Assembly (NCBI RefSeq): GCF_902459525.1
Contig: NZ_LR699166.1
Span: forward strand, 1,031,501 to 1,095,500
DNA from: Sideroxydans sp. CL21
GTDB taxonomy: Bacteria; Pseudomonadota; Gammaproteobacteria; Burkholderiales; Gallionellaceae
DNA length: 64,000 bases
Reading direction: 5' to 3'
In this document: one piece after another, positions 3,437 through 31,573 of the stretch
How positions within the stretch are numbered: position 1 is the stretch's first letter
How the letters are laid out: every line of letters begins with the position of its first letter
Program-made: the position numbers and the translations under genes
Notes under the pieces: generated by a model
What the model saw: only the letters and a program-made list of their open reading frames with translations
What the model was told of the DNA's origin: nothing
Databases searched by the model: none

Positions 3437-3528
3437 TAATTCGTCACACCGGCGTAGGCCGGTGTCCAGTCGATTGAAAACACCGGATTCCGGCCTTCGC
3501 CGCAATGACGAAATCTGAATTACTAGAG
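3437..3528. repeat. Short palindromic intergenic repeat (GTCAnnCCGGCG type)
   Basis: Two head-to-head copies of a short unit, AATTCGTCACACCGGCG and its near complement ending CGCCGCAATGACGAAAT, enclose a block with GCCGGTGTCCAGTCGATTGA. The whole segment can fold as one long hairpin. The block GGTGTCCAGTCGATTGA recurs at 14458-14474, next to a larger element of the same kind. It lies in the roughly 310-bp gap after the third glycosyltransferase and probably terminates or insulates transcription. It resembles REP-like elements common in betaproteobacteria. Confidence 0.7.
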
Positions 3529-3640
3529 GTCCCGTCAATTAAATACATCGGTAAAACCCCGAATACGACGGCGTACCGCCAATCCATAAATGTCTGAAAA
3601 GCCAGTATCCGCTTTATTACAGCTTTTCCAAATTCCGTAA

Positions 3641-3706
3641 TAGTCCGTTTGGACTAGCCTATCCGTAATTCTCCGTACAAATTGTTTCATATTGCTTTTA
3701 TAAAGT
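3641..3706 (+). promoter_or_regulatory. Palindrome-TTCAT promoter module, copy 1
   Basis: An inverted repeat TAGTCC-GTTT-GGACTA (3641-3656) is followed by TTCATATTG (3686-3694) and, 7 bp later, TAAAGT (3701-3706), which looks like a -10 element. The same order and spacing recur at 15791-15856 and 18760-18826. The palindrome centre to the end of TTCAT is 41.5 bp here and 40.5 bp in the other two. The start codon of the PEP-CTERM/WecG fusion is about 55 bp beyond the putative -10. This is read as an activator-dependent promoter; the binding protein is not known. Confidence 0.6.
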
Positions 3707-6285: not shown

Positions 6286-6762
6286 TTAATCGGTTGCCAA
6301 TCCCTGACGATTTCTACGGCGATTTGCAGCAAAGCCGAGCAGGGCCAGGCCGCAGGCCATCAGAATATACTCGGCAGGTTCCGGTATTGGGCTTACCGGA
6401 AATCCGTCATCGCGATTCCACTCGTGCTGATTGATGTCTCTGTCACCGATATTAGGTATATGCGGTTCACTGCCATCTTGTTCCGGGTGCTGTCTGGAAC
6501 TGTTCAGGAAACTTTCAAAGCTCGGGCCGTTTGGGTCGGCAGCAAAGGTGAAGTTGCCGTCTTTGCCTGACGCGGAGAAAATGAAGCGGACATTGGAATT
6601 GGTAAAGTCACCGGCGGTGTTGTGACTGAAAGTAGTTGAGTCTTGAGTATTGAAAATCGATGAAGATTGCCGATCCAACGCCGTGGCAGTGGCGTTGATG
6701 CTGAAAAGGCCTAAACAGGCGAACATAACTAGTGCTATCTGGAACTTAGCATGCTGTTTCAT
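6286..6762 (-). CDS. PEP-CTERM sorting domain protein
   Basis: A 158-residue exported protein. It has an N-terminal signal peptide (hydrophobic residues about 8-24, ending INATATA), a short Ser/Asn/Asp-rich body, and a C-terminal sorting signal made of PIPEPAEY, a hydrophobic stretch and NRRRNRQ. In PEP-CTERM/exosortase systems the tail is cleaved by an exosortase during export and the protein joins the exopolysaccharide matrix. No exosortase gene lies in this window, so it must be encoded elsewhere. It is convergent with galE, with only 27 bp between stop codons. The body matches no family I recognise. Confidence 0.85.
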   Translation of the reverse strand: MKQHAKFQIALVMFACLGLFSINATATALDRQSSSIFNTQDSTTFSHNTAGDFTNSNVRFIFSASGKDGNFTFAADPNGPSFESFLNSSRQHPEQDGSEPHIPNIGDRDINQHEWNRDDGFPVSPIPEPAEYILMACGLALLGFAANRRRNRQGLATD

Positions 6763-7151
6763 GAGGTGCTCTCCATAAAGATTAGTAAAAATATTCGTTG
6801 ATGGTTGGCTGGTAATTGAAAATGCAAAATTCCGGTACTCGCTGGAATGAGAAAACCTGCGCCGTTACTGACAAGGAAACGCCGGTAAAGTTCGTTCGAC
6901 CCGATCCTTCGACTCTGCGCAGGACATGATTGATATTTCCGCAATAATTAAAGATGACAACAGTCGATCCTGCCGGAAAAGGGGCGGTATTATCTGATTG
7001 GAATGTTGCAAATTTTGGTACAACATCGATGTGCAATATGAGCCGTTCGGACCAGCTTCCGATTTGGCAATTCACTCCGTGCGTCCCTGCTTAAATCTGA
7101 AATATCATTCGGTATAGAATTGCGATCTGCCGGATACTACTGAAAAGCGAT
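6763..7151. other. Divergent intergenic region
   Basis: About 390 bp between the minus-strand PEP-CTERM gene and the plus-strand nucleotidyltransferase. It should carry both promoters. On the minus strand a half-degenerate relative of the CCGTTCGG palindrome (around 7041-7056) is immediately followed by CTCATATTG, but the spacing does not match the three good promoter copies. An open frame of 97 codons on the minus strand has no ribosome binding site or recognisable domain and is not called. Confidence 0.4.
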
Positions 7152-12764: not shown

Positions 12765-13571
12765 ATGAACCGATCTAGAGATGACATTATGCTGGTAGGA
12801 GAAGAGCCGTCGCGGCTGGCTTCAGTGGTCGATAGCTCCTTGCGCGTATCGAACGAGCAGCAATTCTTTTCCTGGGTTCAGGGAGAATTGCAGTATTTGC
12901 TGTCGCACGAAATCCTGATCTGCGGAATTGCTTCCGGCGCGGATTCGAAGATGCGATGTTATCGATTCTCAAGCACTCGCTACTTCCGGCTGGAACACTT
13001 TAATGCCGTGTGCGATCCGGTGAACGGCTTGTTCACACAGATGATGTCGCTAACGCGCAAGACCGGCGGGCCCTGTTTGTTGGGGCCCGGCATTTCCATC
13101 GGCGGTTGCGATGAGGCATGGTTGCCGTTGCTCGAAAGCAGCGAATTGCGCAATGTCGCCGCCTATGGACAGCGCGGCACGGACGGTCAGCTGAAGAGCT
13201 ATTTCTGTTTTGCCCGTATCGGTGAAGAACTCTGTCCTCGCATCATGTATATCCTCGAGGTACTGGCACCCATTCTGGAATCGACATTCTCCCGTGTGGT
13301 GTCTCATCAGGGATTCAAAACCCAGGCATATTTTCCAAATGCCATGCTGTTGAGCAAACGCGAAACAGAGGTGCTGCACTTTCTGATGGCGGGAAAATCC
13401 AATCAGGTTATAGCGGAAGAACTTTTTCTCAGTCCGTTGACGGTCAAGAATCATGTGCAGAACATCATGAAAAAACTCAGAGTAAAAACGCGCGGCCATG
13501 CCGTCACCATTGGTTTGAAAATGGGCCTTTTAATATCGAAAAATGAAATCCAGGGAGAAAGCAATGTCTGA
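12765..13571 (+). CDS. epsA: EpsA-like LuxR-family transcriptional regulator
   Basis: A 268-residue regulator. The N-terminal 180 residues resemble the sensory part of EpsA-type proteins associated with exosortase/PEP-CTERM loci (NEQQFFSWVQGELQYLLSHE, a quorum-regulator-like start). The C-terminal LuxR helix-turn-helix is clear: LLSKRETEVLHFLMAGKSNQ, then IAEELFLSPLTVKNHVQNIM and KKLRVKTRGHAV. No receiver domain precedes it. The family is known next to exopolysaccharide genes, and this one sits between the sugar transferase cluster and the PEP-CTERM and TPS genes. Its last 8 bases overlap the DsbC-like gene. AGGAG lies rather far (about 13 bases) upstream of the ATG. It is a candidate to bind the palindromes at 3641, 15791 and 18760, but this is inference. 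Confidence 0.82.
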   Translation: MNRSRDDIMLVGEEPSRLASVVDSSLRVSNEQQFFSWVQGELQYLLSHEILICGIASGADSKMRCYRFSSTRYFRLEHFNAVCDPVNGLFTQMMSLTRKTGGPCLLGPGISIGGCDEAWLPLLESSELRNVAAYGQRGTDGQLKSYFCFARIGEELCPRIMYILEVLAPILESTFSRVVSHQGFKTQAYFPNAMLLSKRETEVLHFLMAGKSNQVIAEELFLSPLTVKNHVQNIMKKLRVKTRGHAVTIGLKMGLLISKNEIQGESNV

Positions 13572-15672: not shown

Positions 15673-15767
15673 CCGATATCAAGCCTACCGATTTTTTCCA
15701 TTGAGATCTGATTTCTCGTTTCACCGGCACCAATACCTGTCTGTCAGCACCCGAGTGTCACGTTCAA

Positions 15768-15784
15768 TAGTCCGGATGGACTAG
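15768..15784. promoter_or_regulatory. Second upstream palindrome (tandem operator half)
   Basis: TAGTCC-GGAT-GGACTA lies 24 bp (centre to centre) upstream of the main palindrome at 15791-15808. It keeps the same arms but has a different 4-base centre. No such second site is seen at the other copies of the module. It may be an auxiliary site for the same regulator. Confidence 0.5.
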
Positions 15785-15790
15785 TAAAAC

Positions 15791-15856
15791 CTAGTCCGTT
15801 CGGACTAGAGAAGATATTTTTTTTGAACATTTCTTTTCATGTTGCCACGCTAATGT
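15791..15856 (+). promoter_or_regulatory. Palindrome-TTCAT promoter module, copy 2
   Basis: CTAGTCCG-TT-CGGACTAG (15791-15808) is followed 27 bp later by TTCATGTTG (15836-15844). After 7 bp comes the -10-like TAATGT (15851-15856). Predicted transcripts would start near 15863 and carry a leader of about 320 bases containing the c-di-GMP riboswitch and its terminator before the PEP-CTERM gene at 16184. The spacing is identical to the copy at 18760-18826. Confidence 0.62.
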
Positions 15857-15992
15857 GCAACTCGCCTGAAAGCCGTTCAGGCACGCACCAAAATAGTCTG
15901 AACGGCTCATGCCAAATGCATTTTCAGACCGAAACTTTGTAATGACCACTCGGTAGATTTGCGGTCGGCTGCACAGGAATGTTGTGGGTCAG

Positions 15993-16076
15993 TTGTTAAG
16001 GCTAAACCCGTTGCGAGGCGGGGGCGGAAAGCCACGGATCTCGACGCAAGTGGAGATGGCCGGGTTGCACATGCAG
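15993..16076 (+). ncRNA. Cyclic di-GMP-I (GEMM) riboswitch aptamer
   Basis: The sequence fits the GEMM-I aptamer. GGCTAAACC is followed by stem CCCGTT/GGCGGG (16007-16012 with 16017-16022), closed by a GNRA tetraloop GCGA. The conserved joining strand GCGGAAAGCC (16024-16033) follows, where the consensus has GACGCAAAGCC. A second hairpin ATCTC/GAGAT (16038-16042 with 16053-16057) and the conserved GGCCGGGTTGC close the core. The GNRA loop, the AAAGCC strand and the CCGGGTTGC element are the parts known to form the ligand pocket and tertiary dock. The outer stem is less clear. It lies in the leader of a PEP-CTERM gene and just before a terminator. Confidence 0.82.
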
Positions 16077-16183: not shown

Positions 16184-17056
16184 ATGAAAATGAAAATGAA
16201 TATGACCGTACTGGCAGGTGCTTTGGCACTGGCTGTTGCTGGTCAGGCAAACGCTACAGCAACTGACACTATCGTCAATGGCGGTACTTTTGCCAACGAT
16301 CTGGTTCTGTCGGTTTGGGATACAACTGCCAACACTTCCTACACCGGCAATCTGGGTGTCACCATGCAGAGCTTCCTGAATGGCATTACCTTTGGTGGCA
16401 CAGCCAAGGTTCCCGCTATTTCCGGTGCTTCAACTCAAGGTAACTTCAGCTTTAGCGATGCCACTTTGACCAGCTTCCTGGCCAAAACTACAGATGCTTA
16501 TGTATGGTCCGTTGCTGCTGTATCTGTGCCTGGGATTGCTTATGGCACCTCTGGTATTCTTAGCACTACTAACAGTGGCACAGCAGCCGTTGCAAATACA
16601 ACTGCACCGAATTTTACAGCTGCAGCTACAGTTATGAATGGCACATACCTCGCTGATGTCAACACAATGTTGACTGCGGCTCCTGCAGGTACAATTTCCA
16701 TCACTACTCCGGCAGGTTATGCGGGTGCAGCTTATATGGGTAATTCCGTTGCCAACGGCTTCGCTGGAGCTGTTCCGTTCACCAATACCGCAGCACTCGG
16801 CGCAAGCCAAAGCTTCTACTTCGTGACCCCGACACAAAACAGCCGTGGCGCTTATGCCGGTTCTACGAACCTGCAATTCCTGAATTCGACAGGCGCGGCT
16901 GCAACATGGACGCTGGGCACAAACGGCGCGTTGTCATACGCCGTAGCTGCAGTTCCGGAACCCGGCGAATGGCTGTTGATGTTGAGCGGTTTGGGATTGC
17001 TTGGTTTCATCGCAACACGTCGTCGTAATAACGAAAGCAGCATGACCTTTGCTTAA
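16184..17056 (+). CDS. PEP-CTERM sorting domain protein under riboswitch control
   Basis: A 290-residue exported protein. The signal peptide (MKMKMNMTVLAGALALAVAG, ending QANA) precedes a Thr/Ala/Gly/Asn-rich beta-type body with little charge. The C-terminus is a full PEP-CTERM signal: VPEPGEW, the hydrophobic run LLMLSGLGLLGFIA and TRRRNNES. Exosortase processing and delivery to the exopolysaccharide matrix is the known fate of such proteins. AAGGG lies 9 bases before the ATG. The long leader holds a regulated promoter, a c-di-GMP-I aptamer and a terminator, making this the most elaborately controlled gene here. A hairpin at 17071-17096 (CCCCTGCC/GGCAGGGG, no T-run) separates it from the next gene, which may be co-transcribed. 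Confidence 0.9.
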   Translation: MKMKMNMTVLAGALALAVAGQANATATDTIVNGGTFANDLVLSVWDTTANTSYTGNLGVTMQSFLNGITFGGTAKVPAISGASTQGNFSFSDATLTSFLAKTTDAYVWSVAAVSVPGIAYGTSGILSTTNSGTAAVANTTAPNFTAAATVMNGTYLADVNTMLTAAPAGTISITTPAGYAGAAYMGNSVANGFAGAVPFTNTAALGASQSFYFVTPTQNSRGAYAGSTNLQFLNSTGAAATWTLGTNGALSYAVAAVPEPGEWLLMLSGLGLLGFIATRRRNNESSMTFA

Positions 17057-18759: not shown

Positions 18760-18826
18760 ACTAGTCCGTTCGGACTAGTCAATTCTCCCCATTTGTATAT
18801 TTATATTCATGTTGGGCCGCTAGAGT
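18760..18826 (+). promoter_or_regulatory. Palindrome-TTCAT promoter module, copy 3 (best palindrome)
   Basis: ACTAGTCCGTTCGGACTAGT (18760-18779) is a palindrome with 9-bp arms around TT, the size of a LuxR-type box. TTCATGTTG follows at 18806-18814 and the -10-like TAGAGT at 18821-18826. It lies about 300 bp upstream of the TpsB start, implying a leader of nearly 290 bases. I did not recognise a riboswitch in that leader, although short T-runs after ACTTGGTTGAGG (near 18935) could act as an attenuator. Confidence 0.65.
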
Positions 18827-19122
18827 CGCTAGTTGCAAAGAACGTTGTCCGGACGTGGGTTCACCGACCATTCGGCAAGCATGTCTGAGCGTCGTTCGTC
18901 CCTTCGGCATAACCAGCGACTTGGTTGAGGTTTTTTGGCAACCTAGTCGAATGGCTAGTAGTTTTATCAAGCTCAGGGCGAACGGATTTTCAGTTATCGG
19001 GGACAGGCTGGATTGCTGGCGCCTGTTTATTGCGTGCGAAATGTTGTGGCGGGCATTTATGGGCCTGCAGTGATGAGCGTCAAATTCGTTGAATTGATAG
19101 GGCGCATTTTGGTAACGAATTG

Positions 19123-20718
19123 ATGAGATTGACCCCCATTTTATGGCTGTGTGCAGGACTCTTGCTTATGTGCACCAGCCGGGCAGAGCCGGTACCCGAG
19201 GCAGCCCCCGCAAGAAAGAACAGTTTCAACGTGATGGAGTATCGCATCGAAGGAAACAGGATGCTGTCTGCAACCCGTATTGAAGAGGCTGTGTATCCGT
19301 ATCTCGGCGAGGACAAAACCATCGCCGACGTGGAGGCTGCACGCAGTGCGCTGGAGAAAGCGTATCGGGATGCAGGCTACCTGACGGTGCTGGTGGATAT
19401 TCCCGAACAGACCATCACCAGCGGAATCGTGCGCCTGGCCGTGGCGGAAGGCAGTGTAGAAAAAGTGCGCGTCGTGGGTTCCCATTATTACGATCTGGGC
19501 CGCATCCTGTCCAAGGTGCCGGAGTTGGCGCAGAACAGCGTGCCGTATTTTCCCGGGGTGCAGAAGCAAATGGCGGACGCGAATCGCGCAGCCGATCTGC
19601 GGGTGACCCCGGTGCTGCGTCCGGGCAAGACGCCGGGCACGGTGGATGTGGATTTGAAGGTTGAGGATAAGTTGCCGTTGCATGGCAGCCTCGATATGAG
19701 CAATTACGCCGCCCCCAGTACCTCTTCGCAGCGGCTGACCGGGATGTTGCGTTACGACAACCTGTGGCAGCAGGAACACAGCCTGTCGCTGCAGTACCAG
19801 ACGTCACCGCAGCAATGGGATCAGATACGTGTGCTGTCCGCTACTTACCTGATCCCGTTGGCAAGCGGAAATCAGTTGGCGATGTACGCGGTCTCTTCGC
19901 ACAGTAACGTGGCAGCCCTGGGCGATTTGACGATGCTGGGGCAAGGCAACATTGCTGGTGCGCGCTGGGTGTTGCCGTTGTGGTCGAAGCCGGACTTGTT
20001 TCATAGCTTCACGTTGGGCGTGGATTACAAGAATTTCAAGAACGATCTGTTGGTTTCCAGTACGAACACCGGACACACGCCGATCAGCTACATCCCGTTC
20101 TCGGTGGGCTACAACGCCACCCTGCCGGGAACGGAAGGGATGACCACCGCCAATGTCACGCTCAATTTCACTTTGCGCGGCGTGGGCGACAAGATGACGA
20201 GTTGCAACGGGCAGACGGTATCGGAGTTCGAGTGCAACCGCTATGGCGCCACGTCGGATTATTTTTATTTGCGCGGCGGCTTCGACCGCACCCAGACCCT
20301 GTTCTGGGGAACGTCGCTGTACGCCAAGCTGGATGGCCAGATGGCCAGCGGCCCGTTGATCAACACCGAGCAATTTCTGGGTGGCGGCGCAGATAGTGTG
20401 CGCGGCTACAGGGAAGCCGAGCAAGCAGGTGACGACGGCACGCACGGCACGCTGGAACTGCGCGGCCCGCAGTGGGCCGAGGGCGATGTGAACGATCTGC
20501 GCATGTTGACGTTCATCGATGCGGCGCATCTGCGGGTGAGAAGTGCGCTGCCTGCGCAGGCAGAAACAGCCAACCTGACCAGCGTCGGTGTCGGGTTGCG
20601 GTTTCAGGCCTGGACGTATTTGAACATGAGGCTGGATGTGGGTTGGCCGCGCAAGAGTACGGCTTACACCCCGGCGGGGGAACCGCGTGTGGGGTTCAGG
20701 GCGAGCTTGGCGTTTTAG
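19123..20718 (+). CDS. Two-partner secretion outer-membrane transporter (TpsB, ShlB/FhaC family)
   Basis: A 531-residue TpsB protein. Signal peptide residues about 1-22 are followed by two POTRA-like domains (VMEYRIEGNRMLSATRIEEA, then LVDIPEQTITSGIVRLAVAE and EKVRVVGSHYYDLGRI). A 16-strand barrel follows, containing the conserved loop motif ADSVRGYREAE and ending in the usual C-terminal Phe (RASLAF). TpsB proteins bind the TPS domain of their partner in the periplasm and thread it to the surface. The ATG at 19123 is preferred over the TTG just before it. The partner exoprotein is the next gene, 193 bp downstream. Confidence 0.92.
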   Translation: MRLTPILWLCAGLLLMCTSRAEPVPEAAPARKNSFNVMEYRIEGNRMLSATRIEEAVYPYLGEDKTIADVEAARSALEKAYRDAGYLTVLVDIPEQTITSGIVRLAVAEGSVEKVRVVGSHYYDLGRILSKVPELAQNSVPYFPGVQKQMADANRAADLRVTPVLRPGKTPGTVDVDLKVEDKLPLHGSLDMSNYAAPSTSSQRLTGMLRYDNLWQQEHSLSLQYQTSPQQWDQIRVLSATYLIPLASGNQLAMYAVSSHSNVAALGDLTMLGQGNIAGARWVLPLWSKPDLFHSFTLGVDYKNFKNDLLVSSTNTGHTPISYIPFSVGYNATLPGTEGMTTANVTLNFTLRGVGDKMTSCNGQTVSEFECNRYGATSDYFYLRGGFDRTQTLFWGTSLYAKLDGQMASGPLINTEQFLGGGADSVRGYREAEQAGDDGTHGTLELRGPQWAEGDVNDLRMLTFIDAAHLRVRSALPAQAETANLTSVGVGLRFQAWTYLNMRLDVGWPRKSTAYTPAGEPRVGFRASLAF

Positions 20719-20749
20719 TTATTGACGTTTCGATGAAGGTCGATGGCCT

Positions 20750-20865
20750 TGCCCCCTCCCTCATTCCCTCCCCCGATGGGAGAGGGAAGCCTAGTCCTTC
20801 TTTGCTATGGAGGAAGGCTTTAATTCCCTCTCCCTTCGGGGGAGGGCTAGGGTGGGGGAAGTAGT
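20750..20865. repeat. Inverted CCCTCCC..GGGAGAGGG intergenic repeats
   Basis: Two hairpin-forming units, CCCTCCCCCGATGGGAGAGG and CCCTCTCCCTTCGGGGGAGGG, sit between tpsB and tpsA. They are of the same family as 14320-14460 and are followed by GGGTGGGGGAAG. The second lies 50 bp before the TpsA start, so it may stabilise or attenuate the mRNA between transporter and exoprotein. Confidence 0.6.
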
Positions 20866-20911
20866 TTTGATTTAACCGAACCCGCACAGAAATAAAGTGG
20901 AAGGAACAGCG

Positions 20912-23900
20912 ATGAAAAATGACAAGCAAAAAGTCGGCACGAAGCAAACGCGTGTACCCCAAATCGGCAGACTGACTTTGCTGGTTGGCGCGCTGATCGC
21001 CACGGGCGTGCTGTCGCCATTGTCGCTGCCGGAAGCAGTAGCTGCGCCGTTGCCGGTGCCGATGGGTTTGCCTTGCGGTGGGTGTACCCTTGCTGCCAAT
21101 GCTCCAACTAACGTGTATAGCAATTTTGCCGGAGCGGGTACATCGGTCACGATGTCGAACATCGATCCGAAAACCGGTCTCCCGAACGCCAACAACCTGA
21201 CTATCAATCAGCAAAGTCAAGTCGCCATCCTCAACTGGCAACAATTCAACATCGCCCAAGGCAATACTGTAACTTTTGTGCAGCCGAGCAGCACGTCGAG
21301 TGCGCTCAACCGCATCTGGGATGCGAACCCAACCACCATCGCCGGTTCTCTCACCGCCAACGGCCAACTCTATCTGATCAACCAGAACGGTATCGTTTTC
21401 GCGAATGGCGCGCAGGTGAACACGAATGCGCTGATCGCCTCGTCACTCAACATTACGGATAGCGTGTATCAGAACGGCTATCTGGCGAACAACAATACAC
21501 CCGGTACCGGTGTGATCACGCCGACATTCTCTGGTAATAGCGGCTTTGTCAGGGTCGATACCGGTGCGGTGCTGAATGGTTCGCGCATCATGCTGTTTGC
21601 GCCGGTGGTGGAGAACAACGGCAGCATCGTTACGGCTGATGGTCAGGCAGTGCTGGCGGCGGGTTACAAGGTCTATCTGGAAGCCAGTCAGGATCCGAAT
21701 TTGCGCGGAGTATTAGTTGAAGTAGATTTCAATAATCCGGGGTCTAGGGCAGGGGGTGTTGCGGCTCCAAACGTAGGTGTGGCCGATCCAAATCTGGCGG
21801 GGAAGGGGCTTCAACATACTGAAGTCGGTACTGTTACCAACACTGCCGACATTGTCGCCCAGCGCGGCAACATCACCCTGATTGGCTATGCCGTAAACCA
21901 GCAGGGGCGGGTTTCGGCCACGACTTCGGTCACCGAGAACGGCTCGATCAAGCTACTTGCCCGTTACAATTTAGCGACGTCTATACCGTACAATCAATCC
22001 CAAACCACCGATGTTAAAGATCCCATTTACGATATCAGGGCGAACCAGACTGGAGTCGTGACACTGGCCAAAGGCAGCCTCACCCAGATAACCCCTGAAA
22101 CGACCGACACTTCGACCACGACAGACGGACAGGGATTCAACCCCTCCATCGTGGAAGTCATGGGCAAGAACGTGAACGTGGAAGGCAGCATCTTCGCACC
22201 CGGCGGCAAGGTGAACCTGGTGGCTGCGGGCTACATCGATCCTACGGTGGGGTCTCTCGGTTACAGCGGAAACGGAATCTACCAGGAAATCGATCCGAAG
22301 CTTGCCTACAGCAGTTTCCTCAATCCCAATTACAAGCCGGTCGCAACGGCGGATGGTGCCAGGGTATTCCTCGACAATGGCAGCCTGATCGACGTTTCGG
22401 GCAGCACGGCTTCGGTTTCCGTTGCGCGAGACATTATTGCCGTGCAATTGCGCGGAACTGAACTGGCGAATGCTCCGTTGCAGAAGAACGGTATGCTGTA
22501 CGGCCAGACTGTATATGTGGATATCCGCAAGGGAACAACTCTTGCCAACTATTCCGGAGAAGAGGCCCAGATCGGGCGCACGGTTGCCGAGCGCACGTCG
22601 GCGGGCGGGAATGTGGTCATCGCATCCACCGGGGACGCAGTGATGAACCCGGGAGCAGTAATCAATATTTCCGGAGGCCAGGTCAATCACACCGGCGCGA
22701 ATATCAATACGACATCGCTTATATCCAACGGCAAAGTCTACGATATCGCCACCGCCTCTCCTAACATGATCTATGCCGGCATCTCCGGCACCTATAGCGT
22801 GACACACAGCAAATGGGGTATCACCGAGACCTTCAGCACGATGGCCGGCGGCGACCTGCGTGGTAGATGGGATCCGGGATATGTCGAAGGCAAGGCGGCC
22901 GGGTCGGTGACATTGCTGGTGCCAAATGCGGCTGTCGAAGGCGAAATCATCGCGAATACGGTTTCCGGTATCTACCAGCGGCAGCCCTATGTGGATATGA
23001 CTGCCTCGGGCACGTTGACCCCTCTATACATGAATACTTGGCAGATGCTGCCCAAGGGCGGAACTCTGACCATAGGCTACAACGGATCGGGAGCATTGAA
23101 TGCGACTACCGGTCAATACAATTTCCTCACGAACCACGATGTGGCAGTACAGGCGAATTCGCAGCAGACGACGAACTATGCACCTCTTGATGCGTTGTCA
23201 CCGACCTCGCCTATTGTTCTGGATACCAGCCTTTTCTCCTCCAACCTGAACAATCTGAACGTTTATACAAACGGCATCGCCAGAATCGATGCCGGCACGC
23301 CACTCGTACTTGCTTCGGGCGGCTCGGTCACGCTGCAGGGAGGGCAGGCTGATATGCTGGGTTCGATCAATGTCTCCGGTGGGTCGGTCAGCTTGGGAAC
23401 GGTGTCAACCGTAAATCCGAAATACAACCTTGCTGGTGCAGTCACGGTCGGCGGCAATATTTCAACGCGCGGTACGTGGGTGAACGATTCAAAATTTTTC
23501 GGGCCGTTTGATCCTTCCAAAGCGATCGTGACGAATGGCGGGAATATTTCCATCAATTCAGGCAATGACCTGATCGTCGCTTCCGGTCTGACATTGGATG
23601 CATCGGCAGGCGGCTGGGTCGATCAATCCGGCACGGTTCACGGCGGCAACGGCGGGAATATCAGCCTTTCCGGGAATTCGGTTAAGGCAACAGATGGTAC
23701 CGCGTTGAGCGGGTTGGACAGTATCGCTTTGAAAAGTTACGGCTTGGATAGCGGCACCGGCGGGAGCTTCAAACTGGCCTTAATTGACGATATTCAGATC
23801 GGAGGTGTTGCAGCTAATGGAGCATTCTTGTTGCCTGCTGAATTTTTCCAGAGCGGCGGATTTTCTGCTTACACGATCAATAGCGGAGGTATCTATGGAC

Positions 23901-26900
23901 TCAACGTGGACGGCTTTATCCAGCCCAAAGCGCAGTCGCTGATACTCAACCGTGATGCGGCATTCAAGGCTACGGGCACGGATGTCTATGCCTTGTCAAA
24001 TCCCGGATTCCAGCCTGACTGGCAGCGTAAACCGGTCAACATTACTCTTGGGCAAACAAGTTCTGCGGGTTTCAGCGCTTTGACCATAGGCGACAAGGCT
24101 GAAATCCTGGTCGACCCCACGGCAAGCATCACCCTGAATTCAGTGAACCAGTTGAACGTGCTGGGCACGCTGGACGCGCCCGCCGGGTCGATCAATCTGA
24201 ATCTGAACTTGCCAGCCAATTTATATATCCCGACGCAGTCGATCTGGCTGGGTTCGGGTAGCCAACTTTTGGCAAGAGGTTATTTTCTGCAGGCTCAACC
24301 CACCAAGAAGAATCTGACCCAAGGGCAAATGCTTGCCGGCGGCAAGATCAACATCAGCGGCGCAAACAATGGCTATGTGGTCGCGCAAAAAGGTTCCCTG
24401 ATGGATGTATCGGGAGCATCAGCCAATATCGATCTGCCGCAACTGCAATCGGGTAATTTGGTTTACCGCACAAGTCATGTGGCTGGGGATGCGGGTTCGA
24501 TCTCTGTCCAGTCAAGTGAAGGCGCACTTTTCGATGGCAGCATGAACGCAGCCGTCGAGGCGGGAAGCCAGGCGGCTGCAGGATCGTTCTCATTGACCTT
24601 GAAAAATAATCCGGGAATCGCCCAACTCGATCCGCTCATCAGCCCGCTCTATCCGACAAATCCTGCGCAGATTCAAGTCATGTCAGGGGGTAATGGTAGC
24701 TTTGCCACCCAAGTTTTTGGATCTAATACCAAACTGGTAGCTGGTGGTATAGCTACTTCTACTATTCTTGATCCACTTGCGGGCCGGGTACTATTGGATG
24801 CAAATGCCCTGCAAAAGGCGGGTTTTGATCAAGTGACGTTGAAGAGCGACAACGCCATTATGCTTGCCGACCAGGTTAATCTGCAAACCCGGCGCAGCAT
24901 CACGCTGGATGCACCACAGCTTGTTTCCAATGGCAACAGTACGGTGTCATCGGCGCAAGTCACGCTCGGCAATCTCAATCTGAATCCTCAACTCCAGTCA
25001 TTGCTTGATCCGATTCTTGCCACAAGCATTAGTCCGGCAAAAGGCAGCGGAACGCTGAATGTTTCGGGCCAGATGGTCGATCTGACGGGTAACTTCGTGG
25101 TCTCCGGCATCAGCCAATTAAATGTCGTCAGTAGCGGCGGCGCCAGCAGCGACGACATCCGTCTGAACGGTGTAATCAACTCTACCAATACTGCCCTGCA
25201 AGGCAGCTTGCATACACTAGGGAATGTGACCCTGACAGCCGATCAGGTCTATCCCACCACCATGTCGCAATTCACGCTTTCGGTGGACCCGGGTAATCAG
25301 AATGGGACGATCACGATTCAGCCCGGTCAACATGGTGCGAGTCCGGTGATGTCTGCCGGAGGTCAACTGACTTTGAGTGCAGCTGACATCGTGCAAAACG
25401 GTGTGCTTAAAGCACCCTTGGGCACGCTTAATCTGAATGGCGGCAATACTGTGACTTTGGGTGGCGGAAGCCAGACTTCAGTGTCGGCAGACGGTCTCAT
25501 CATTCCTTTCGGGCTGATCCAGGGTGGCAATTCCTGGATGTATGACCTGACCGGAAACGGCAATCTTGTTCCAATCTCTGCTCTCCAGCTAAACCAGCAA
25601 AAGATAGTGACTTTGAATGGACCAAAAGTCACGGTTGCGCCAGGCGCGACAGTCAATCTTTCGGGTGGCGGCGATCTTTATGCCAACGAATTCTTTGCCG
25701 GGACGGGCGGTACGGTGAATGTGCTCGATCCGGCCAAAGCGCCAGCCAACACGTTTGCCATCATTCCTGGCATATCCGGCTTCGCACCTTATGATCCGCA
25801 ATCGGTCGGGCAATACCTGCAGGGGGGTTCCAATACCACACTGAAAGCGGGCGCCAGCGTTTATCTTGCAGGTGGCAATGGCCTTGCGGCGGGTTATTAC
25901 ACGCTGCTGCCGGCAAGTTATGCGTTGCTGCCCGGCGCTTACCGGGTGACGGCGGTTTCCGGTTACTCCGACATGCAGCCGGGTCTGGGAGCTACAACCC
26001 TGCTGGATGGGTCGCAGATCATGGCGGGTAAATTTGCCGTCGTCGGCACCAACATCCAGGATGCGCGCTATTCCGGTTTTGAAGTGTCGCCGGGTGCCGT
26101 GGTGCGTACACAGTCTGAATATCACGACAGCTATGCCAATGCATTCTTTGCAGCTCAGGCTGCAACCAGCGGGAGCCTTGCGCCCAGATCACCCGTGGAC
26201 GCAGGCCAGCTCATCGTCGATGCAACGGGTGCGCTCGTATTGGATGGCACTTTCAATTCCCAGCCTGCTGCCGGAGGCAAGGGGGCATGGGTTGATCTTA
26301 ACGGGCCGCAATTCGATATTGTGAATACCGCAGGCACAGGGATCGCAGGCTACGTTGAATTGACGACGAGCATGCTGAACAACCTCGGGGCGGAAAGCCT
26401 GCTGATCGGCGGGGTGAGGACACAGACCTTGACCGGAACTTCAATTGCTGTAGGCGCAGATACTGTTCGCGTCGACAACGCCGGTAGTGTGCTGGCCGGA
26501 CCCGAAATCATCCTGGCCGCGAACAACGCAGTGACCGTCAAGGCAGGAAGCGACATTGAAGGCAAGGGAACGTTCTCCGGTCAAGCGAGCAACATTACCA
26601 TTGCAAATGTGAACGCCAACGGTACTTCAGCGTATGGCGACGGTGCCTTGTTGCGCGTTTCTTCCGCAGCACAGGTGACGGTTGCACGAACCAATACGGC
26701 CCCGGTTCCGCTCACTGCAACGCTTTCCATCGAAGACGGTGCGACAGTCGGTGCCCAGAATGCAGTGTTGCTGGATTCTTCCAATGCAACCACCATTGGC
26801 AACAAAGCCGTTCTCAAAGGACAAGCGCTGAGCGTTGCGGCGCAGGGCATCGATGTCGGAACGAATCCGAATCCCGCCGCGACTTCGCTCGCGCTGACGC

Positions 26901-29900
26901 CGACACTGCTGGCCCAGATGCAGAATTTCCAGGACATCGCCCTGCATAGTTATACCGACATCAATTTCTATGGTGCGGCTGCGTTGGGCGGATCGGTGCA
27001 GGGCAAGTACTCGATATCGAACCTGGTGTTGAATGCCGGAAATCTCAATAGCATCGGCAATGCAGGCAATACCACCATCGACGCATCGACCGTGACCCTC
27101 ATTAACAACAACGGGAGTTCGACTGCGTCAACACCGGGCGGCTCGGGAACACTGAACATCAATGCGAACCAGATTATCCTGGCGGACGGGAGCAAAGGCA
27201 TTCAGGGTTTCGACACTGTCAACCTCAATGCGGCACAGCAGATCACCGGGCAGGGCACCGGCAGCCTGACAGTCAGTTCCGGCAACGCCCAAAAATTGGC
27301 GCTAACCGGAGAGATCACAGGAACAGCGAAATCGAACCTGTCCATTACCGCATCGGATTACGACGTAACCATCGCGGCGGGCACCGTTTCTGCGCCAACG
27401 ACGGCCGATGTCGGAGCGGCGTTCTCCCTCAACGGCAAGAGCATTGCTGACAATGGAAACATTGTCATGCCTTCGGGCGCGGTGACGCTGCATGCAACAA
27501 ATGGTGTGACGCTCGGTGCCGCTTCGCAAATTGTCGCATCTGGCGCAACCAAGGTTATTGCCGGACAAACAGCTTATTCGCCGGCGGGATCCGTTACCCT
27601 GACTTCCGACAACAGCAACGTCGATATCGCGAGCGGGGCGGTTGTGGATGTATCTGGCGCGAGGAATTCGAATGCAAAAGATGGCGGCGATGCAGGAACC
27701 TTTAACGTCAATGCAACGCAAGGGATAGTATCCATTGCGGGCAAACTCAAGGGTTCTGCGGTGCCTGGGCACGCACAAGGCTCTTTTGTGCTGGACGCGA
27801 AATCTCTTGGTACTACTCTCACGACGCTGGACAACCAGTTGATGTCCGGAGGCTTCAACCAGTTGATCGACATACGCGTCCGTTCCGGCGATCTCGCCCT
27901 GGATGCCGGCAGCACGGTAACGGCACATTCCTTCCACCTCGCGGCCGACAACGGAAAAATCGACGTGTCAGGCAAGGTAGATGCATCCGGCATAACGGGA
28001 GGAGACATCCTGTTGGCAGCGCTGAACAATGTGACGCTAAAAAGCGGCGCGCTGCTGGATGCTCATGCAAGCGGCACCGGACAGGCGGGTGGAAAGGTGA
28101 CGCTTGAAACCACGGCGGGGGTGATCGATCTCAATAATCAAAGCATCGATGTGCATGGCGATGGCAATACAGGTGGCAGCGTGCTATTGCGCGCACCGCA
28201 GATTGCAGTCGGAGGTAGTACAACAAATAACGATGTTGCGATCAACAATAATGATTTGGCTACTGCCAAGCCAGCTGCGAGTCTTAATGTGAGCGCTGGT
28301 GCAAACGTCAACGTCGAGGCTTTCAAAACCTATACCGCGACTACGATTGGGGCGGCAGATGTAGTGGCGGCAACAAGCTCGGTTTACTATAACGATGCAA
28401 CAAACTTTGCCAATAACAACGCCGCCGCAATCAAGACTCGGCTTGGCATGACCGCCAGCCAGCATCTGACTCCGGGCATAGAGATCGACAGCACCACAAA
28501 CCTCGCACTTACGGCTGACTGGGATTTGTCACAATGGCGCTTCAATAATGGCAATGGCACTGGCGCGGCCTTCAACACGGAATCTGGCATCCTGACTCTG
28601 AAAGCGGCCGGCGATCTCATTTTCGGTTCTGCACCTACATCTGCGTTGAACGCCACAACCAATCTTGTTGACATAACTTATCACACAGCGTCGTTATCCG
28701 ACGGATTTGCCATTACCCCTGCAACTGCCACTGCTCCCGCTAATTACTTCACGCTATTACCCGTTGGCTCATCCTCCTGGTCGTACCGGCTGGTTGCAGG
28801 CGCGGATGCGACGGGAGCTAACGTGCTTTCTGTGAAAAATGACAAGAAGGGAAATGTGACGCTTGCAGAAGGAGGCTTTGTAGCCGGTACTCAGGAACTA
28901 AAAAATAAAAGAGGTCAGGTGGTTGTTCCTTATAAACCCTCAACAACGTATTTCGAAATGATCCGCACTGGCACCGGCAGCATAGATATTGCGGCTGGAG
29001 GCGACCTGTATTTGGGTAACAGTAATTCGATGATTTACACTGCGGGACAGCAGACGATTTTGCCTGCAAGCCGCGCGGTCACCGCGACACAAGGGCCTGT
29101 ATTTACGACTGGCGGAGGCGATATCAACATCGCCGTCAAGGGCAACATCAGTGCGGTCGGGGCGCCAGATCCGATAACTGGATTGCCATCTGGTTCTGCT
29201 GTCAGTCAGCTCATCACAGATTGGCTATGGCGTCAGGGTTCGCCTAACGGCACAGTGGCCGTGCAGCCCGCATGGTGGGTTGATTTCGGTTCCTTTGCGC
29301 AGAACATCGGCGCATTGGGCGGTGGCAATCTCAACATCAGTGCGGGAGGCAACATCACCAGCCTCTCTGCCGTGGTGCCGAGCACGGGTTATGTGGATAC
29401 GGCCACCGGTGCAACGAAGCTGGTTTCAGGCGGCAACCTCAGCGTGAAAGCCGGGGGCAACATTGACAGCGGTATTTTCTACGTGGGCAACGGGCAGGGA
29501 ACCATCAGTGCGGGGGGGGCTTTGGACTCGTCGCGCAAAGATGCGAATACCACGCTCTATACCATTCTGGCATTGGGGCAGGGCAATATCGATGTACGAA
29601 CAGGCGGAGATTTGAATCTGCAGACTGCGTTCAACCCGACCATGAATGGTGTAGGAACCATGTTTTTCACGTATGGCGATAACAGCGGCATTTCGCTCGA
29701 GAGCCTGAATGGCAACATTTTGCTCAGCAACGCTACAACTTTCTATCAAGGTAACGTAGGTACCAACCTTGCCACTACTCCTTACATCAATCCTATCAAT
29801 ATCGGCACCACAGCCTATCCCAAATACGCAAATCCAGGTGCGTTGACGGTTTATCCCGGCACGCTGAACGTTACGGCCTTGAACGGCAGCATCAGCACCA

Positions 29901-31573
29901 GCAGTTCACCCATGAGGCTTTTCCCCTCGTCTACAGGCAATCTGCAACTCATTGCGGGTGCCGACATTAATTTCAACGGTCTACTGACCATGTCGGATGT
30001 CAGCCCGATTACGCTACAGCCGAATACGCCAGTTTCCAACTACATCGACACAGGTAGTAGCGACCCCATGGCAGGCCATGGTTTTGTGATCGATCCTGTT
30101 CTTGGTCAGGTGCCAGTGCACAACGGGGATACAACTCCGATCATCATCGCGGCGGGTGGCAGCATCATAGGAAACAATACCGTTTCACCGATCACGCCGC
30201 TGTTAACCCTGCCCAAAGCAGCCAATATCCAGGCTGGGGTCGACATCGTGAATCTCTCGATGTCCGTGCAGAATGTTCAGAGTACCGATACCACCGGCAT
30301 GACGGCAGGGCGCGACATCTTGTTCACCCCGAACCCAAACTCTACCAGCACAAGTCCGATCAATACGATGGGCATAACCGTTACAGGGCCGGGGCAACTT
30401 GTTTTGCAGGCCGGACGTAACGTAGATCTGGGGGTTTCGCCCGGTATTGTGTCGAACGGCAATCTCGCCAATCCTTACCTGCCTGCTCAGGGTGCCGGCA
30501 TCACCGTGCTGGCCGGAGTCGGACAAGGCGCAACCGATACGCAGGCGTTCATCGATAAATATATCAACCCTGCCAGCGCAGGAACGACATACGGTGCCGA
30601 CCTGATCGCGTACGTGGACAGCTACGGAATGCCGCAGAATCAGACTGCAGCGCAAGCGTTTGCCTACTTTGACACGTTGTCGCAGCCGCTTCAGGACGCT
30701 TTCGTCAGGCAGGTTTTCTTCAGCGAACTGAGGAGTACGGGACGCAGCGCGGTGAATACGGGCAACTACCACTCTGGATATGCCGCCATCGCCACGCTGT
30801 TCCCTTCCGGCGGGTATCAGGGCGATATCAATCTTTACTACAGCCAGATCAAGACGCTGCGCGGCGGAGATATCAATCTGCTGACTCCAGGTGGCGGTGT
30901 CAACGCGGGACTGGCTAATCCGTCCTCGAACGGCCTTGCAAAAACGGCGGCTGAATTGGGTATCGTCACTGTTGATGGCGGCAATGTGAATGCTTTCGTC
31001 AACAATGATTTCACGGTCAACCAGTCGCGCGTGTTTACGCTGCAGGGCGGCAATATTCTGATGTGGTCTTCTTACGGCAATATCGACGCAGGCAAGGGAT
31101 CGAAGAGCGTATCGTCCACGCCGCCGCCGCTGCTGGTGGTCGATCCGAAGACGGGTACTTTCAATGTGGACGTAACGCAGTCCGTGGTCGGCAGCGGCAT
31201 CCGCGTGTTGCTGGCGAACAAGAACGTCGTGCCGGGCTCAGTCGATCTTTACGCACCTGCCGGCGTGATCAATGCGGGAGATGCAGGCATCGGATCGGCA
31301 GGCAATATTTATCTCGGTGCGTTGCAAGTGCTGGGTGCCAACAACATCAACTTCGGCGGCGTTGCGGCAGGTGTACCGATTGCCGCGCCGGCGCCGGTCA
31401 GTGTGGGTCTGGGCAATCTGCAGGACGCGAGCAAGGCCGCTGATCAGGCGACCCAGAGCCTGGCGAGCGTCAACAGCATGAATACGAATGACTTCAGACC
31501 TACTTTCCTCTCCGTCGAGGTGATCGGATTGGGAGATGACGCAAATCCGAGAGATCAAAACTCGACCCAGTAA
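20912..31573 (+). CDS. Giant filamentous haemagglutinin-type exoprotein (TpsA)
   Basis: A protein of about 3553 residues. Start at 20912 follows GGAAGGAACAGCG; the GTG five codons earlier lacks this. A long signal region (hydrophobic around residues 26-45, ending AVAAPLP) is followed by a CGGC pair. The TPS domain then has INQQSQVAILNWQQFNIAQG, NRIWDANPTTIAGSL and LINQNGIVFANGAQVNTNAL. The body is thousands of residues of Gly/Asn/Thr/Val-rich beta-helix repeats. Near the C-terminus is a DUF3739-like segment (YAAIATLFPSGGYQGDINLY, TLRGGDINLLTPGGGVNAGL). It would be exported by the upstream TpsB and form a long adhesive fibre. No C-terminal cysteine hook, sorting tail or LapG-type site was seen near the end; one PAAG occurs mid-protein (about residue 1785). 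Confidence 0.93.
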   Translation: MKNDKQKVGTKQTRVPQIGRLTLLVGALIATGVLSPLSLPEAVAAPLPVPMGLPCGGCTLAANAPTNVYSNFAGAGTSVTMSNIDPKTGLPNANNLTINQQSQVAILNWQQFNIAQGNTVTFVQPSSTSSALNRIWDANPTTIAGSLTANGQLYLINQNGIVFANGAQVNTNALIASSLNITDSVYQNGYLANNNTPGTGVITPTFSGNSGFVRVDTGAVLNGSRIMLFAPVVENNGSIVTADGQAVLAAGYKVYLEASQDPNLRGVLVEVDFNNPGSRAGGVAAPNVGVADPNLAGKGLQHTEVGTVTNTADIVAQRGNITLIGYAVNQQGRVSATTSVTENGSIKLLARYNLATSIPYNQSQTTDVKDPIYDIRANQTGVVTLAKGSLTQITPETTDTSTTTDGQGFNPSIVEVMGKNVNVEGSIFAPGGKVNLVAAGYIDPTVGSLGYSGNGIYQEIDPKLAYSSFLNPNYKPVATADGARVFLDNGSLIDVSGSTASVSVARDIIAVQLRGTELANAPLQKNGMLYGQTVYVDIRKGTTLANYSGEEAQIGRTVAERTSAGGNVVIASTGDAVMNPGAVINISGGQVNHTGANINTTSLISNGKVYDIATASPNMIYAGISGTYSVTHSKWGITETFSTMAGGDLRGRWDPGYVEGKAAGSVTLLVPNAAVEGEIIANTVSGIYQRQPYVDMTASGTLTPLYMNTWQMLPKGGTLTIGYNGSGALNATTGQYNFLTNHDVAVQANSQQTTNYAPLDALSPTSPIVLDTSLFSSNLNNLNVYTNGIARIDAGTPLVLASGGSVTLQGGQADMLGSINVSGGSVSLGTVSTVNPKYNLAGAVTVGGNISTRGTWVNDSKFFGPFDPSKAIVTNGGNISINSGNDLIVASGLTLDASAGGWVDQSGTVHGGNGGNISLSGNSVKATDGTALSGLDSIALKSYGLDSGTGGSFKLALIDDIQIGGVAANGAFLLPAEFFQSGGFSAYTINSGGIYGLNVDGFIQPKAQSLILNRDAAFKATGTDVYALSNPGFQPDWQRKPVNITLGQTSSAGFSALTIGDKAEILVDPTASITLNSVNQLNVLGTLDAPAGSINLNLNLPANLYIPTQSIWLGSGSQLLARGYFLQAQPTKKNLTQGQMLAGGKINISGANNGYVVAQKGSLMDVSGASANIDLPQLQSGNLVYRTSHVAGDAGSISVQSSEGALFDGSMNAAVEAGSQAAAGSFSLTLKNNPGIAQLDPLISPLYPTNPAQIQVMSGGNGSFATQVFGSNTKLVAGGIATSTILDPLAGRVLLDANALQKAGFDQVTLKSDNAIMLADQVNLQTRRSITLDAPQLVSNGNSTVSSAQVTLGNLNLNPQLQSLLDPILATSISPAKGSGTLNVSGQMVDLTGNFVVSGISQLNVVSSGGASSDDIRLNGVINSTNTALQGSLHTLGNVTLTADQVYPTTMSQFTLSVDPGNQNGTITIQPGQHGASPVMSAGGQLTLSAADIVQNGVLKAPLGTLNLNGGNTVTLGGGSQTSVSADGLIIPFGLIQGGNSWMYDLTGNGNLVPISALQLNQQKIVTLNGPKVTVAPGATVNLSGGGDLYANEFFAGTGGTVNVLDPAKAPANTFAIIPGISGFAPYDPQSVGQYLQGGSNTTLKAGASVYLAGGNGLAAGYYTLLPASYALLPGAYRVTAVSGYSDMQPGLGATTLLDGSQIMAGKFAVVGTNIQDARYSGFEVSPGAVVRTQSEYHDSYANAFFAAQAATSGSLAPRSPVDAGQLIVDATGALVLDGTFNSQPAAGGKGAWVDLNGPQFDIVNTAGTGIAGYVELTTSMLNNLGAESLLIGGVRTQTLTGTSIAVGADTVRVDNAGSVLAGPEIILAANNAVTVKAGSDIEGKGTFSGQASNITIANVNANGTSAYGDGALLRVSSAAQVTVARTNTAPVPLTATLSIEDGATVGAQNAVLLDSSNATTIGNKAVLKGQALSVAAQGIDVGTNPNPAATSLALTPTLLAQMQNFQDIALHSYTDINFYGAAALGGSVQGKYSISNLVLNAGNLNSIGNAGNTTIDASTVTLINNNGSSTASTPGGSGTLNINANQIILADGSKGIQGFDTVNLNAAQQITGQGTGSLTVSSGNAQKLALTGEITGTAKSNLSITASDYDVTIAAGTVSAPTTADVGAAFSLNGKSIADNGNIVMPSGAVTLHATNGVTLGAASQIVASGATKVIAGQTAYSPAGSVTLTSDNSNVDIASGAVVDVSGARNSNAKDGGDAGTFNVNATQGIVSIAGKLKGSAVPGHAQGSFVLDAKSLGTTLTTLDNQLMSGGFNQLIDIRVRSGDLALDAGSTVTAHSFHLAADNGKIDVSGKVDASGITGGDILLAALNNVTLKSGALLDAHASGTGQAGGKVTLETTAGVIDLNNQSIDVHGDGNTGGSVLLRAPQIAVGGSTTNNDVAINNNDLATAKPAASLNVSAGANVNVEAFKTYTATTIGAADVVAATSSVYYNDATNFANNNAAAIKTRLGMTASQHLTPGIEIDSTTNLALTADWDLSQWRFNNGNGTGAAFNTESGILTLKAAGDLIFGSAPTSALNATTNLVDITYHTASLSDGFAITPATATAPANYFTLLPVGSSSWSYRLVAGADATGANVLSVKNDKKGNVTLAEGGFVAGTQELKNKRGQVVVPYKPSTTYFEMIRTGTGSIDIAAGGDLYLGNSNSMIYTAGQQTILPASRAVTATQGPVFTTGGGDINIAVKGNISAVGAPDPITGLPSGSAVSQLITDWLWRQGSPNGTVAVQPAWWVDFGSFAQNIGALGGGNLNISAGGNITSLSAVVPSTGYVDTATGATKLVSGGNLSVKAGGNIDSGIFYVGNGQGTISAGGALDSSRKDANTTLYTILALGQGNIDVRTGGDLNLQTAFNPTMNGVGTMFFTYGDNSGISLESLNGNILLSNATTFYQGNVGTNLATTPYINPINIGTTAYPKYANPGALTVYPGTLNVTALNGSISTSSSPMRLFPSSTGNLQLIAGADINFNGLLTMSDVSPITLQPNTPVSNYIDTGSSDPMAGHGFVIDPVLGQVPVHNGDTTPIIIAAGGSIIGNNTVSPITPLLTLPKAANIQAGVDIVNLSMSVQNVQSTDTTGMTAGRDILFTPNPNSTSTSPINTMGITVTGPGQLVLQAGRNVDLGVSPGIVSNGNLANPYLPAQGAGITVLAGVGQGATDTQAFIDKYINPASAGTTYGADLIAYVDSYGMPQNQTAAQAFAYFDTLSQPLQDAFVRQVFFSELRSTGRSAVNTGNYHSGYAAIATLFPSGGYQGDINLYYSQIKTLRGGDINLLTPGGGVNAGLANPSSNGLAKTAAELGIVTVDGGNVNAFVNNDFTVNQSRVFTLQGGNILMWSSYGNIDAGKGSKSVSSTPPPLLVVDPKTGTFNVDVTQSVVGSGIRVLLANKNVVPGSVDLYAPAGVINAGDAGIGSAGNIYLGALQVLGANNINFGGVAAGVPIAAPAPVSVGLGNLQDASKAADQATQSLASVNSMNTNDFRPTFLSVEVIGLGDDANPRDQNSTQ

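Follow-up and report, generated by a model that had tools for sequence, protein, structure and literature searches.

A palindromic promoter module beside epsA as a candidate EpsA operator in Sideroxydans sp. CL21 and related bacteria

Introduction

According to the accessible text of Haft et al. (2006; PMC1569441), genes for PEP-CTERM proteins have long upstream regions and are controlled by the PrsR/PrsK pair with sigma-54 through an upstream motif, and the accessible part of a further study describes pepA as RpoN-dependent (PMC9850573). The PrsR/PrsK/sigma-54 system thus acts on PEP-CTERM genes, as the system proposed here would, but it has a DNA motif of its own, a sigma-54 promoter and an NtrC-like activator. 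A regulator of biofilm formation, EmbR of Rubrivivax gelatinosus, belongs like EpsA to the LuxR family and is found in a bacterium with PEP-CTERM/EPS genes, but is a response regulator with a receiver domain, as described in the accessible portion of its paper (PMC3684757). That portion mentions no promoter, EpsA or binding site, and this paper on EmbRS and one on Geobacter gsu1771 (PMC10599522) were set aside as having, in their accessible parts, no bearing on EpsA.

In structure, EpsA comes close to the LuxR-type quorum-sensing activators RhlR, QscR, CviR and SdiA: the fold matches over nearly the full length. The site proposed for it is, like a lux box, a dyad of about 20 bp. EpsA itself is represented by the family TIGR03020 (XrtB/PEP-CTERM-associated transcriptional regulator EpsA); the protein studied here exceeds the curated cut-off of this family, and its genome encodes two XrtB exosortases. 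In the open-access literature covered, of which the 2003 description of the eps genes of Methylobacillus is not part, we found for EpsA no DNA site, no promoter geometry and no set of targets, nor any account of PEP-CTERM genes being controlled by it. A literature search with the letters of the core palindrome returned, in the text accessible to it, a single match, a paper on Toxoplasma (PMC8951120).

Here we analyze a 64,000-nt stretch of the Sideroxydans sp. CL21 genome (NZ_LR699166.1, positions 1,031,501 to 1,095,500, forward strand), referred to below as the window, in which palindromic boxes stand before genes for PEP-CTERM and secreted proteins on both sides of epsA.

Results

A repeated box, 9-mer and hexamer in the window

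An earlier note on this sequence had described a three-copy module at about 3641–3706, 15791–15856 and 18760–18826, and all three copies were recovered, with box, 9-mer and hexamer in the same order. The boxes lie on the plus strand at 3639–3658 (AATAGTCCGTTTGGACTAGC, 25.1 bits), at 15790–15809 and at 18760–18779 (a 9+2+9 palindrome with perfect arms, ACTAGTCCGTTCGGACTAGT), with centres between 3648/3649, 15799/15800 and 18769/18770. On the same strand follow TTCATATTG and TAAAGT at 3686–3706 (9-mer 3686–3694, hexamer 3701–3706), TTCATGTTG and TAATGT at 15836–15856 (9-mer 15836–15844, hexamer 15851–15856), and TTCATGTTG and TAGAGT at 18806–18826 (9-mer 18806–18814, hexamer 18821–18826). The hexamer begins at base 53 after the box centre in the first copy and at base 52 in the other two. 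Measured from the box centre, the first base of the 9-mer, which is also the start of its TTCAT, lies at 37.5, 36.5 and 36.5 bp in the copies at 3639, 15790 and 18760; the previously reported distances of 41.5, 40.5 and 40.5 bp are correct when taken to the middle of the 9-mer. The gap between 9-mer and hexamer, reported as 7 bp, is 6 bp in each of the three copies.

For the scans described below, a box matrix was trained on seven sites of the window's own lineage, three of them in locus L091 and four in the window (the three boxes above and the one at 15766), so that window scores at the training sites are in-sample. Two further boxes in the window are absent from the earlier note: an upstream tandem member at 15766–15785 (plus strand), 24 bp before the 15790 box, and a fifth, minus-strand box at 53171–53190 (AATAGTCCGTTCGGATCATT, 20.2 bits), which is outside the training set. 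With at most three mismatches allowed, CTAGTCCGNNCGGACTAG has four matches in the window, where 0.12 would be expected, and none of 100 shuffled windows reached four. The pattern TTCATNTTG-N6-TANNGT, composed after the three copies had been seen, matches with at most one mismatch exactly these three copies (0.28 expected; one of 100 shuffles reaches three), and the same pattern with a 7-bp gap gives four window matches (1.46 expected), the three copies not among them.

A box-like match at 15892 (10.6 bits) was set aside, since by eye it is one arm of a leader inverted repeat. This repeat, AGCCGTTCAG / CTGAACGGCT at 15871–15907, lies upstream of the riboswitch described below, and one of its arms overlaps the match. 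Between a glycosyltransferase gene and the 3639 box, a stretch at 3440–3510 with an inverted repeat resembles, by eye, a dispersed repeat.

The boxes are local in the Sideroxydans genome

Across the genome (3,772,857 bases in one contig), CTAGTCCGNNCGGACTAG occurs with at most two mismatches in four places, all in the window, and in five other places with three mismatches. At this looser limit, the backwards-read control is commoner than the motif (48 vs 9 places). Similarly, a looser palindrome pattern has three exact places, all in the window, and with one mismatch allowed finds 11 places in the genome vs 8 for the backwards-read control. A genome-wide regulon in this organism was rejected, as close matches are confined to the window and loose matches are below or about at the level of the control. 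The five window boxes with at least 20 bits, which include the four places with at most two mismatches, all lie within about 40 kb of epsA. In this genome the regulon is therefore a small, local one, with five boxes, a tandem pair among them, in about 50 kb, and the earlier suggestion of a biofilm-surface regulon is to be corrected to this extent.

EpsA is encoded between the boxes

The gene at 12765–13571 (plus strand) encodes a LuxR-type transcriptional regulator that matches TIGR03020 with 198.2 bits (cut-off 170) over positions 4–243 of 247, and is the proposed binder of the boxes. Twelve proteins of the genome match TIGR03020, EpsA included; EpsA is the only full-length match, the 11 others being partial and including the HTH. 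At its C-terminus EpsA carries a GerE-type HTH (PF00196, residues 195–248), and no Pfam autoinducer domain was found in it at E <= 0.001. An AlphaFold2 model, built from the EpsA of the window together with nine relatives and with a mean pLDDT of 83.6, matches RhlR, QscR, CviR and SdiA over about 250 columns, that is, nearly full length, with RhlR as the best match (7r3i; E 3.8e-10, TM about 0.5, rmsd 7.8). The EpsA sequence profile likewise matches CviR residues 21–256 with an E-value of 2.2e-23. CviR differs, however, at W84 and D97, which we take to be ligand contacts and which are not conserved in the EpsA profile: in an alignment that is weak at this place, they are aligned to H and S. 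An AHL signal for EpsA is therefore not supported.

The genome contains three exosortase-family matches (PF09721), of which two were typed, both as XrtB (357 and 396 bits vs the TIGR03113 cut-off of 275); one XrtB lies 16 kb before the window. No box of at least 10 bits was found before epsA itself in the window. In four loci of one family (L119, L121, L123 and L129), the reading frame of epsA is preceded, at about 130 bp, by weaker boxes of 12–14 bits; judged from these sequences, self-regulation of EpsA is possible in that family, with no counterpart in the window.

The box recurs beside epsA in other genomes

At E <= 1e-30, EpsA is present in 71 genomes out of 399 in the order and in 12 out of 369 in the class, the Sideroxydans genome being counted in both, as well as in five of eight genomes of one more distant family. 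Part of the loci found in these surveys, together with 11 from a public genome collection, gave, after five duplicates had been dropped, a test set of 74 non-duplicate held-out epsA loci (1,200,399 bases), which are not phylogenetically independent. At 18 bits or more, 22 sites were found in 17 of the 74 loci (200 column-permuted motifs: mean 0.45 sites, maximum 3), and at 14 bits or more, 44 sites in 31 loci (permuted mean 5.53, maximum 25). Four loci (L131, L149, L151 and L155) come from genomes picked because the box was already known there; without them, 20 sites remain in 15 of 70 loci at 18 bits (permuted mean 0.42, maximum 3) and 39 sites in 28 of 70 at 14 bits (permuted mean 5.31, maximum 25). 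The 43 held-out loci with no site of at least 14 bits may have a diverged site or one placed elsewhere, or the box may not be universal. Regions of the same genomes were also compared: 40 regions away from epsA (800,000 bases) contain one site of at least 14 bits, and 29 epsA regions (564,304 bases) contain 29 such sites, in 19 of the regions.

These comparisons bear on whether the box is a chance palindrome or a dispersed palindromic repeat. Such an origin would suit the loose-match counts in the Sideroxydans genome, in which the backwards-read control outnumbers the palindrome (48 vs 9) or roughly equals it (8 vs 11). The shuffles, the permuted motifs and the control regions all argue against it, as does the fixed spacing at sites outside the training set (see below), and we regard it as highly improbable.

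The position of the boxes relative to epsA is also informative. The 700 bp after the epsA stop codon make up 4.2% of the bases and hold 19 of the 44 boxes, in 15 of the 31 boxed loci and in several families; without the four box-picked loci, 18 boxes in 14 loci remain in this zone. In the order, the box (at most one mismatch) occurs in 10 of 399 genomes, and EpsA is present in 6 of these 10 vs 65 of the 389 genomes without a box (Fisher p 0.003). The four other box-bearing genomes have HTH-level matches only. Each of them (G461, G434, G772 and G264; loci L166–L169) carries one near-perfect box with full-length EpsA absent, and in G434 and G772 another LuxR-type gene lies on the contig of the box, about 2.5 and 6.6 kb away. 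The boxes of these four genomes may be due to chance or may be used by another LuxR-type protein; because of them, other LuxR-type proteins may use similar sites.

By extension, the palindrome in the window might be bound by a different GerE/LuxR-type regulator, with epsA merely linked to the gene cluster. The four EpsA-less genomes, two of them with a LuxR-type gene near the box, would fit such a regulator, and genes for GerE-type HTH proteins are common in the Sideroxydans genome, as the 12 TIGR03020 matches indicate. The concentration of boxes just after epsA in several families, the nearly box-free control regions of the same genomes and the lack of a second TIGR03020 match (E <= 0.001) within the window speak against it, and we consider it unlikely. 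The earlier guess of a LuxR-type activator fits EpsA: the gene lies between the boxes, and in other genomes boxes beside epsA keep the spacing to a -10-like hexamer and precede PEP-CTERM genes.

Genes downstream of the boxes

In accord with the earlier description, domain and family matches place the three module copies before a PEP-CTERM/WecG fusion gene, a PEP-CTERM gene with a riboswitch and a TPS operon. The target of the 3639 box (3762–5204, plus strand) encodes an N-terminal PEP-CTERM region of the FxDxF family and a C-terminal WecG/TagA/CpsF glycosyltransferase; on topology, the enzyme part of the product would remain cytoplasmic on exosortase cleavage. The tandem boxes 15766/15790 precede the gene for a PEP-CTERM protein (16184–17056, plus strand). 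Downstream of the 18760 box, genes for a ShlB/FhaC-type two-partner transporter (19120–20718, plus strand) and a TPS-domain protein of 3558 aa (20897–31573, plus strand) would form one co-transcribed target operon, 19120–31573. The fifth box has as its target a gene for a phosphoesterase-family protein (51775–53034, minus strand), which begins with what, by eye, resembles a signal peptide.

A weak candidate sixth box (7037–7056, minus strand, 9.3 bits) lies about 285 bp upstream of a gene for a short PEP-CTERM protein (6286–6762, minus strand) and is followed on the minus strand by GCAACA (7009–7004) and GATAAT (6994–6989) at the spacing of the module. We keep it as a candidate only, because it falls below the cut of 16 in the three-part scan described below. 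The genome has seven PEP-CTERM places over cut-off, of which two have a strong box and 6286–6762 has the weak candidate only.

In the held-out loci, where PEP-CTERM-like ORFs were called by a regular expression, a box of at least 14 bits lies within 450 bp upstream of 17 of 53 such ORFs vs 12 of 936 other ORFs; the Fisher p of about 5e-16 is too small because the loci are related. The remaining 36 of the 53 have no box of at least 14 bits. Without the four box-picked loci, the counts are 17 of 51 vs 9 of 891. Eight proteins encoded downstream of boxes in other loci were checked against NCBIfam: those of L132 and L162 exceed PEP-CTERM cut-offs, those of L113 and L137 match PEP-CTERM models below cut-off, that of L123 carries an IPTL-CTERM domain, and that of L129 (532 aa) had no NCBIfam match. 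The transporters of L130 and L171 match Omp85-type NCBIfam models only, and weakly; Pfam finds ShlB/POTRA domains in both, so a two-partner transporter follows the box in the window, in L171 and in L130.

With targets of this kind, the boxes might mark promoters of the PrsR/sigma-54 type, which Haft et al. (2006) described for PEP-CTERM genes, and the similar target genes and long intergenic regions described in the accessible part of that paper (PMC1569441) would agree with this. In the three window promoter regions, however, TGGCACG-N4-TTGCW is absent even with three mismatches allowed; the best of the 50 PrsR matches in the genome reaches 380 bits vs a cut-off of 502.6, so that none is over it; and motif 1, as given in the accessible text, ends in TTTACA, unlike the box. 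A PrsR/sigma-54 promoter was therefore rejected and has, in our estimate, hardly any chance of being correct.

A c-di-GMP-I riboswitch ahead of one PEP-CTERM gene

The leader of the PEP-CTERM gene at 16184–17056 contains a c-di-GMP-I riboswitch (15991–16072, plus strand). Riboswitches of this class are present at the corresponding place in L171 (12876–12957) and L172 (5350–5466), where, as in the window, two tandem boxes come first, the riboswitch follows the second of them at about 200 bp, and a PEP-CTERM gene comes next; the tandem boxes are 24 bp apart in L171 and 23 bp apart in L172. None was found in four other loci searched.

The distance from box to hexamer is conserved

The geometry proposed earlier placed the palindrome about 62 bp before an inferred start, and the underlying spacing of box to hexamer holds outside the window. 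Among 35 sites of at least 16 bits from outside the window's own lineage (70 strands; L161, nearly identical to L160, was omitted from the spacing and promoter tables), TAnnnT starts at base 52 in nine and at base 53 in six, compared with a mean of 0.83 and a maximum of 4, at base 32, for the other offsets. Eight of these sites come from genomes picked for a known box; the 27 others (54 strands) have TAnnnT at base 52 in five and at base 53 in six, with a mean of 0.71 and a maximum of 4, again at base 32, elsewhere. When the strand is set by the PEP-CTERM gene, TAnnnT is found at base 32, 52 or 53 in 20 of 32 genes whose best box has at least 8 bits and in 3 of 19 genes with a best box below 8 bits (p 0.0015); offsets 52 and 53 were fixed beforehand by the window, and offset 32 and the split at 8 bits were chosen afterwards.

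A dyad of about 20 bp is thus found at a conserved distance from the hexamer, which would place it at about -42 or about -62 from the putative transcript start. In class I and class II lux-box promoters, the positions of the box differ by 20 bp, and the offsets 52 and 32 found here, also 20 bp apart, recall this difference. At the fifth box, GTCAT (53154–53150) is followed by AATAAT (53139–53134), and base 42 is where the hexamer begins, nearer to the box than at the other promoters by about one turn of the helix (about 10 bp).

No consensus -35 was found among the 31 promoters compared: the best match to TTGACA at a spacing of 16–18 bp has at most 2 of 6 letters in 27 of them, a raw count made without a random baseline. 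LuxR-type proteins are capable of repression, and a box that serves as an operator for repression rather than activation is compatible with the sequence. Against repression, the box stands ahead of the core promoter (offsets 52/53 and 32, about 20 bp apart) and leaves the -10 uncovered, and the poor -35, even as a raw count, points the same way; repression is accordingly given a small probability, and activation is the preferred reading in what follows.

The middle element

At exactly 15 nt before the hexamer, TTCAT is present in five of six promoters of the window's own lineage (TTCA in all six) and in none of 25 others; TTCATNTTG as a generally conserved 9-mer was rejected on this account. 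The 25 outside promoters gave 22 aligned ones (two L145 rows and L132:11227 were dropped as near-duplicates) and then 17 clusters, labelled by hand. With these clusters aligned on the hexamer, the 5-mer KYMAB stands at exactly -15 in 13, and their best six columns hold 3.57 bits vs at most 2.07 in 2000 circular-shift controls. From the 13 of 17 clusters with KYMAB at -15, we take TTCATNTTG to be a local version of a more widespread element that resembles GTMAYA.

We give about even weight to the reading that TTCATNTTG/GTMAYA is a separate element, which might belong to the core promoter, at 10 bp from the hexamer, or be bound by a second factor; this would be compatible with EpsA binding at the box. 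The fixed position and information content of KYMAB argue for it, as does the fifth box, where GTCAT keeps its 15 nt to AATAAT despite the nearer hexamer, that is, with the box about 10 bp closer. On the other side, GTMAYA was identified after the fact, 4 of the 17 clusters are unmatched, the clusters were labelled by hand, three of them (L131, L132 and L149) come from genomes picked for a known box, and we know of no sigma factor that uses the pair of GTMAYA and hexamer.

Box, middle element and hexamer were also combined in a three-part score. The three window promoters are part of both its matrices, and 42 is among the allowed offsets because it had been seen beforehand. The fifth box, which is in neither training set, scores 31.2, whereas the control regions (800 kb) reach 18.5 at best; in 10 simulated windows taken together, a single match had a score of at least 16.

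In the L131 promoter (box 749), an inverted repeat, TGACAC-N4-GTGTCA, extends across the middle element, and a degraded form of it is seen in L157 (box 278). The repeat is possibly the site of a second factor.

Tentatively, and with less confidence than in a separate element as such, we suggest that EpsA promoters of several families share a three-part core of box, GTMAYA/TTCAT and, 15 nt on, TAnnnT, with the middle element replacing the -35 at an unusual 10-bp spacing.

Discussion

We consider it likely that the palindrome is the operator of EpsA and that, together with the hexamer, it forms an activator-dependent promoter for surface and secreted proteins of an XrtB-type exosortase/EPS cluster. 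This reading is drawn from features of the sequence, namely the box and its spacing, the co-location with epsA, the targets and the riboswitch; binding and activation by EpsA, the transcript starts and the signal that EpsA would sense are what we infer from them. Against this reading count the held-out epsA loci (43 of 74) and PEP-CTERM-like ORFs (36 of 53) that lack a box of at least 14 bits, the box-bearing genomes in which full-length EpsA is missing, the five of seven PEP-CTERM places of the Sideroxydans genome that have no strong box, the lack of a box before epsA in the window, the deviating spacing at the fifth box and the one column-permuted motif that scored 25 sites of at least 14 bits.

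An EpsA dimer would occupy the box, with its centre some 63 bp (in certain relatives some 43 bp) upstream of the presumed start, and would recruit RNA polymerase to a promoter with a TAnnnT -10 and a weak -35. The PEP-CTERM proteins, the two-partner adhesin and the phosphoesterase of the XrtB-type exosortase/EPS cluster would thereby be switched on. In the window's lineage, one target would come under a second checkpoint through the c-di-GMP-I riboswitch of its leader.

If the three-part core suggested above is real, it would constitute a distinct promoter architecture, read either by a second partner factor or by recruiting polymerase in a way that has so far gone unrecognised. EpsA and the box make up a candidate pair of regulator and site, to which a defined spacing, a set of target genes and a joint riboswitch belong. 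How environmental bacteria control XrtB-type surface proteins is thereby open to direct test.
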